Part shown: positions 23,215 through 23,302 of the stretch, piece by piece
Numbering within the stretch: position 1 is the stretch's first letter
Layout: each line of letters starts with the position of its first letter
The notes under the pieces: generated by a model
Told to the model about the DNA's origin: nothing
Seen by the model: the letters and a program-made list of their open reading frames with translations, nothing else
Database searches by the model: none
DNA from: a virus
Virus record (IMG/VR): IMGVR_UViG_3300003319_000064
Coordinates: 1-33,366 of that record
DNA: 33,366 bases
Strand: one strand, 5' to 3'
Translations under genes and position numbers: made by a program

Positions 23215-23302
23215 AAGATTCAAACAGCACGTTCTTTTATAAAGTTCGATTCTTTAATCCTGCACCACATGCGGGATATGCCTATGGATAGGTATGAATC
23301 TT
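23215..23302 (+). ncRNA. Circularly permuted tRNA-like RNA (CAGCA copy n)
   Basis: It starts directly after the CCA of tRNA-Leu. Order: AAGATTC; AAA; CAGCA; T-arm TAAAG-TTCGATT-CTTTA (23240-23256); 3' acceptor strand ATCCTGC, A, CCA (23257-23267); CAT; 5' acceptor strand GCGGGAT (23271-23277), which pairs with ATCCTGC; AT; D-arm GCCT-ATGGAT-AGGT; GAATCTT, which pairs with the first 7 nt. So the tRNA is opened at its anticodon arm and closed at its acceptor. Both the D-loop GG and T-loop TTC are kept. This is the topology expected for a YrlA-type Y RNA. Confidence 0.7.

Follow-up and report, generated by a model that had tools for sequence, protein, structure and literature searches.

A probable Y RNA of the YrlA type, with an encoded CCA, in the tRNA array of a virus

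Complexes of Ro proteins with Y RNAs are known in animals and bacteria, and a 2014 study by Chen and colleagues reportedly identified likely Y RNAs close to Ro60 in over 250 species of bacteria and phages. Two other kinds of RNA also serve for comparison. Permuted tRNA genes of algae and archaea are arranged as T-arm, 3' acceptor strand, link, 5' acceptor strand and D-arm, and the tRNA-like domain of tmRNA is a tRNA mimic without an anticodon that carries G3-U70 and ACCA. YrlA, a Y RNA of Salmonella and others (Rfam RF02553), is described as a stem formed from both RNA ends that bears a domain resembling the D, T and acceptor arms (PMC8394870; PDB 6CU1 cited there). The same source describes modification of YrlA by DusA and TruB and its role in tethering Rsr to PNPase. 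An RNA-repair operon setting of YrlA, and the idea that it acts as a decoy by competitive inhibition of a tRNA nuclease, are given in PMC7790460. For phages, Y RNAs near the Ro60 genes of mycobacteriophages are mentioned in PMC12282133, a phage YrlA is mentioned, with a review cited, in PMC7765460, and TROVE proteins in some jumbo phages are reported in PMC7824862.

The stretch analysed here, called the window throughout, is a virus record of 33,366 bases with 26 tRNAs called by ARAGORN, 24 of which end in an encoded CCA. Within this array lies an 88-base element (Table) that is most probably a YrlA-type Y RNA of the phage, with a tRNA-mimic module standing on a stem to which a Ro60-like protein would bind. 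Three features of YrlA were found at the locus: the permuted tRNA module of T-arm, closed acceptor and D-arm, the enclosing outer stem (its RNA ends predicted) and a nearby Ro60-like gene. The differences are also clear. The RF02553 consensus has AUGC beside the stem, a 6-bp acceptor and a short cap without CCA, whereas (A)CAGCA(A) stands beside the stem in the element and its phage family, and the element has a 7-bp acceptor and ACCA. Unlike YrlA, the element sits in a phage tRNA array together with seven related hairpins. RF02553 gave no match at the element up to an E-value of 10 (loose Rfam thresholds gave chance hits only) and one unrelated 11-bit match in the window. None of 19 module-bearing viral loci matched it at gathering score; sub-threshold matches were seen in 6 of 14 named phages. 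An earlier note on this DNA had likened the element to YrlA-class Y RNAs by its topology. That topology is borne out by the Ro60-fold gene in the array, a second module and a viral family that co-occurs with Ro, but strict membership in RF02553 is not, and the element is therefore best named YrlA-type.

The likeness to phage Y RNAs near Ro60 genes lies in a phage Ro gene with a tRNA mimic close by; in phage Faith1, a module lies beside the Ro-like gene. With the tRNA-like domain of tmRNA the element shares the absence of an anticodon, G3-U70 and ACCA, but it has no mRNA part, its order is permuted and its CCA is internal. The open literature searched yielded no published account, although one may exist, of these traits: escape from RF02553, CAGCA where YrlA has AUGC, a 7-bp acceptor, an encoded CCA and many copies within a single tRNA array. 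The RNA class is already known; its phage branch, the signature motif and the built-in CCA appear poorly charted.

Table. Features of the window, with positions counted from its first base
Feature	Position	Strand	Basis and remarks
Simple CAGCAA hairpin	16117-16168	+	Hairpin scan; begins right behind tRNA-Met
Simple CAGCAA hairpin	16973-17031	+	Hairpin scan; between tRNA-Trp and the Ro-like gene
Ro60-like protein, 489 aa, DUF2828 and DUF7788	17082-18551	+	Domain matches, predicted fold; probable partner of the element
Simple CAGCAA hairpin	18594-18672	+	Hairpin scan; just 3' of the Ro-like gene
Simple CAGCAA hairpin	21894-21935	+	Hairpin scan
tRNA-Leu(TAG) with CCA	23137-23214	+	ARAGORN; ends directly before the element
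Element, whole Y-RNA-like unit	23215-23302	+	Anatomy scan, folding, pair probabilities
Element, outer (Ro-type) stem, 5' strand AAGATTC(A)	23215-23222	+	7 pairs, probability 0.55-1.0
Element, ACAGCA motif beside the 5' strand, then C	23224-23229	+	Sequence, position profile
Element, T-arm TAAAG TTCGATT CTTTA (RNA UAAAG UUCGAUU CUUUA)	23240-23256	+	Weak stem
Element, 3' acceptor strand ATCCTGC	23257-23263	+	Pairing
Element, A73 and encoded CCA (ACCA)	23264-23267	+	Sequence
Element, remaining cap loop CAT	23268-23270	+	Sequence
Element, 5' acceptor strand GCGGGAT	23271-23277	+	Pairing
Element, D-arm GCCT ATGGAT AGGT, carries GG	23280-23293	+	MFE favours a longer hairpin with a UGGA loop
Element, outer stem, 3' strand (T)GAATCTT	23295-23302	+	Almost abuts the D-arm
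Third unit: stem of 7 bp, CCAGCAA, no more than a T-arm-like hairpin (acceptor and D-arm absent)	23725-23836	+	Hairpin scan
Second Y-RNA-like unit, complete permuted tRNA module (core 25294-25347)	25243-25372	+	Hairpin scan; directly after tRNA-Asp
Simple CAGCAA hairpin	25904-25981	+	Hairpin scan; a few bases past tRNA-Glu(CTC)

The anatomy of the element was as the earlier note had drawn it. All parts, from T-arm to D-arm within a 7-bp stem, were found where they had been placed; the acceptor strands form 7 of 7 pairs, G3-U70 among them; the encoded CCA is followed by the claimed 3-nt link; and the GG of the D-loop and the TTC of the T-loop are present. The outer stem pairs 23215-23221 with 23296-23302, and is 8 bp long if A23222-U23295 is counted. 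The dinucleotide AT stands between the 5' acceptor strand and the D-arm, and again between the D-arm and GAATCTT, and the 5' spacer measures 17-18 nt. Neither ARAGORN nor Rfam RF00005 called the element as a canonical tRNA. In the partition function, pair probabilities were 0.90-1.0 for the acceptor, 0.98-1.0 for the D-stem and 0.55-1.0 for the outer stem; for the AU-rich T-stem they were just 0.20-0.24 in a model that does not include tertiary contacts between D-loop and T-loop. The fold drawn for the element is 4.9 kcal/mol less stable than the minimum free energy structure. None of 200 shuffles was as stable as the element (z = -3.56), a z-score that drops to -1.71 once 10 nt upstream and 28 nt downstream are added. 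A descriptor scan scored the element at 27.9, against a maximum of 24.2 among 219 hits in 3,322 dinucleotide-shuffled windows; the descriptor was made after the element had been seen and awards 3 points for CCA, without which the element scores 24.9.

The second unit of the window is unannotated and comprises a 9-bp outer stem, ACAGCAA, a good T-arm, 7 acceptor pairs (GGGGCTA/TGGCTCC, with G3-U70 and without CCA) and a D-arm. A model built on 26 viral modules with window sequences excluded, here called R1, gave it 48.3 bits (E = 1.6e-12) and gave the element 19.3 bits (E = 3.8e-4). The latter is near the other T-arm or tRNA-junction matches in the window (17.4 bits), and a genuine tRNA-Leu/tRNA-Phe junction elsewhere reached 52 bits. 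Thus R1 alone is unable to separate modules from tandem tRNA junctions, and it was given up as a sole discriminator. The second unit is the cleaner and more canonical copy. The element is a divergent family member with a weak T-stem, a short D-loop and CAGCAC in place of CAGCAA; the base after ACAGCA is A in 95% of 78 family members. Because of this divergence, confidence in the element is lower than in the second copy.

Besides the two modules, the array holds six further hairpins with this type of stem and the CAGCA(A) motif. In a position profile built from 78 other members, five of the eight window sites rank 1-5 among 84 CAGCA sites, and the 5' arm of the element ranks 12th. A CAGCA site at 20675 scored well and was dropped for want of a 3' strand. 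Two more stretches, at 26470-26586 and about 22673-22776, are tRNA-like and have T-arms, yet are called by neither ARAGORN nor Rfam; the former combines an acceptor of 7 bp (GCGGCTA/TAGCTGC) with a middle that is too long. Threonine and isoleucine are the sole amino acids without a called tRNA in the window. A 102-aa protein encoded within the array (24730-25038) matches the C-terminal domain of ribosomal protein L7/L12. At 9691-12258, a large protein, which we take to be terminase-like, is split by an intein with a LAGLIDADG domain, the intein match lying just below the Pfam cut-off.

The element begins 0 nt, and the second module 1 nt, behind the upstream tRNA, which makes release through tRNA 3' processing plausible. 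Sixty modules have a same-strand tRNA upstream of them, and 22 of these modules begin within 10 nt of its 3' end; this is only a modest excess, since 26% of the 525 gaps between one tRNA and the next are equally short in these loci.

The Ro-like gene lies 5 kb upstream of the element within the same tRNA array, and its product is the probable protein partner, as judged from domain matches and predicted fold. Its AlphaFold2 model has a pLDDT of 84.7, and all nine fold matches at E <= 0.001 were Ro structures: first 9l5y, the Ro60 of Thermus phage phiLo (only 16% sequence identity), then 1yvr and 1yvp (animal Ro) and 2nvo (Deinococcus Rsr). The TM-scores of 0.36-0.61 are moderate and indicate likeness at the level of the fold family, not in detail. 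Mycobacteriophage proteins that bear the annotation 'Ro-like RNA binding protein' share about 40% identity with it, and homologues occur in 675 of 50,697 phage records. The Pfam TROVE domain (PF05731) did not match the protein and a search for relatives with the single protein found none; a sequence profile likewise had no match among solved structures, where the fold comparison did succeed.

IMG/VR was searched for ACAGCAA followed by a T-arm, and a scrambled version of the motif, with identical letters, served as control. Both patterns matched at least 120 viral loci, and the counts of cores used all 120 listed loci of each set. Motif-bearing permuted cores numbered 64, in 43 of the 120 loci listed, while the scrambled motif gave 1 core in 1 of the 120 listed. 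A Ro-like protein was encoded in 35 of the 120 motif stretches listed and in 1 of the 120 scrambled ones. When identical cores were counted once, the 43 loci became 41, and these were compared over whole records with 41 loci drawn at random from the 120 control loci listed. DUF7788 (Ro-like) was present in 32 of the 41 records with motif and permuted module and in 0 of the 41 scrambled controls; one locus of the control set shares its contig with one of the motif set. Record length is not the explanation of this co-occurrence, since the contrast holds, among the same listed loci, in records below 20 kb (10 of 15 against 0 of 23). A search for close relatives of the element by acceptor and CCA returned none with motif and permuted core among 120 loci listed.

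Named phages gave a similar picture. A related pattern was found in 11 of 15 Ro-positive phages and in none of three Ro-negative ones (T4, S-PM2 and phiCbK), and the reversed pattern in none of the 18. KVP40, chosen before it was tested for a Ro-like gene, has the gene and two pattern matches; the Ro status of the other 14 came from prior searches and was rechecked for one of these phages. In Sinorhizobium phage phiM7, Y-RNA-like units with stems of 19-21 bp were seen at 17321-17470, 18575-18713 and 11748-11828, one of them reading CTCCCCG-ACCA-TCTAT-CGGGGAG with a D-arm that resembles tRNA-Leu. Listeria phage LMTA-57 has three tandem CAGCAA hairpins (19663-19927) directly before its Ro-like gene. 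In the related Listeria phage CKA15, the Ro-like protein was detected in purified particles (PMC12282133), so a Ro complex might travel in virions. The most transcribed non-coding region of CKA15 is given in that source as 26,236-26,727. A link between this transcript and the hairpins did not hold up: by megablast the region maps to about 18489-18980 of LMTA-57, where there is no CAGCA hairpin.

The family was also approached from the protein. A profile of 15 Ro-like sequences retrieved 530 encoding stretches, of which 80 were kept. Strict motif-bearing modules were few in the Ro-protein loci (12, in 10 of 79 loci), most of which have simple hairpins, modules outside the DNA examined, or none. 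Among 25 cores in Ro loci, CAGCA accounted for 12 and other permutations of its five letters for 0 to 9, the 9 belonging to the overlapping ACAGC. Hairpins with CAGCAA numbered 312 in Ro loci, where the 59 other hexamers of the same composition averaged 96 (sd 33), the next highest count, 234, being that of the overlapping ACAGCA; in control loci they numbered 102, where the mean was 80 and the maximum 123.

Both-sided changes were found at all seven acceptor pairs of 26 aligned modules, a set picked partly by pairing. Covariation was 0.933, whereas shuffles gave 0.241 and slid partners no more than 0.202. When 36 modules were chosen without regard to pairing, by motif, T-arm and D-arm sequence only, 6.06 of 7 acceptor pairs formed; with partners swapped the figure was 3.29 of 7 (sd 0.20) and never more than 3.92 in 1,000 trials.

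Encoded CCA occupies exactly tRNA positions 74-76 in 14 of 80 distinct motif-bearing modules. The position one base before yields 2 of 80, and the four offsets that follow yield 0 of 80 each. With the window and the named phages left out, it is found in 11 of 68 (P = 9e-9 against an expectation of 1/64). The encoded CCA is therefore recurrent, exactly placed and no quirk of the element, although most modules are without it. Its presence in a module did not correlate with CCA in the canonical tRNAs of the same contig (P = 0.62), and similarity to canonical tRNAs was 0.760 for modules with CCA and 0.772 for those without. By neither measure was there a sign that CCA modules are recent tRNA relics; the best match of the element in its own contig is only 0.58. 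G3-U70, spotted after the fact, occurs in 5 of 80 modules, including both of the window.

These figures bear on other explanations of the element. It could be functionless debris, in which a deletion has left a tRNA's 3' half together with its neighbour's 5' half. Tandem junctions do have the identical part order and can reach high R1 scores, and with nearly all tRNAs here encoding CCA, a junction of two such genes would leave CCA in the cap. Against this stand 7 of 7 acceptor pairs combined with an enclosing stem beside a Ro-type motif, a trio that recurs in the window and in the 80 distinct modules, and the tRNA similarities just given show modules with CCA to be no nearer to canonical tRNAs. 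We regard this explanation as improbable. A free-standing tRNA decoy that soaks up host toxins or nucleases directed at tRNA, with or without Ro, is unlikely in our judgement, though somewhat easier to entertain. The detail of the mimicry and the retention of CCA in some modules are in its favour, as is the competitive inhibition raised for YrlA (PMC7790460). However, there is no anticodon arm to serve as a target for anticodon nucleases, and the part that stays constant across the family, the Ro-type stem with its motif, is common also to simple hairpins without a tRNA module.

The earlier note had offered a permuted tRNA gene as an alternative, in which the cap would be excised and the outer ends joined to give a working tRNA. 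The part order agrees with that of such genes, and an RNA ligase gene (PF09414) is located at 31816-32409, close to where the tRNA array ends; five named phages likewise have annotated RNA ligases, or a tRNA-splicing ligase, no more than 20 kb from Ro-like genes. Unlike those genes, the element has no fitting anticodon arm and has a Ro-type stem and motif instead: a stem of 7-8 bp with a spacer of 17-18 nt is a misfit for anticodon arm and variable loop, and the spacers of the family are longer and variable (24-44 nt, the range allowed, was used). The joined loop TTGCAAA was counted correctly, but it is obtained only by borrowing C23213 and A23214, the end of the tRNA-Leu CCA. Spacer length and variability, the Ro-type motif after the stem and this overlap make a permuted tRNA gene extremely unlikely. 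There is also a reading in which RNase P and trimming cut the cap and leave a two-piece, Ro-held mimic with a free 3' CCA. The exact placement of CCA over its neighbouring offsets favours it, while the many modules without CCA, including the cleaner copy in the window, and the independence of module CCA from contig tRNA CCA speak against it; we would give it little credence. It is scarcely probable, too, that the CCA is used, such that host RNase P and 3' trimming would open the cap and the 3' ACCA of the Ro-bound RNA, adjoining a complete acceptor, T-arm and D-arm, would be read by CCA-requiring enzymes. G3-U70 with A73, present in both modules of the window, is the main alanine mark, so the element might accept alanine, and charging would give an aminoacylated mimic that is held by Ro and is not a tmRNA.

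For the YrlA-type Y RNA that we favour, the RNA is probably transcribed along with the tRNA array, and its 5' end would be set when the 3' end of tRNA-Leu is matured. The outer stem and the adjoining (A)CAGCA would form the site bound by the ring of the phage Ro60-like protein, and at the far end the T-arm, the acceptor closed by the ACCA cap loop and the D-arm would make up the tRNA mimic, which tRNA enzymes may modify. In the simplest account, the phage Ro complex would have several Y RNAs, of which two in the window carry the full tRNA face. By analogy with the known complexes, and tentatively, the RNA may tether or gate the Ro ring while its tRNA face docks, or is acted on by, a tRNA-recognising partner, such as a PNPase-like nuclease or tRNA enzymes. 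The ring itself would deal with structured or damaged RNA, and the complex may in this way steer how structured RNA and tRNA are degraded or quality-controlled in the infected cell.

The pairing of Ro protein with Y RNA, known from animals and bacteria, appears to be present in many phages that have tRNA arrays. The short phage RNAs escape ARAGORN and Rfam here, and the CAGCA motif finds them. With this motif, and with a tRNA-exact CCA in about one-sixth of the modules, the docking partner of the mimic becomes testable in laboratory phages.
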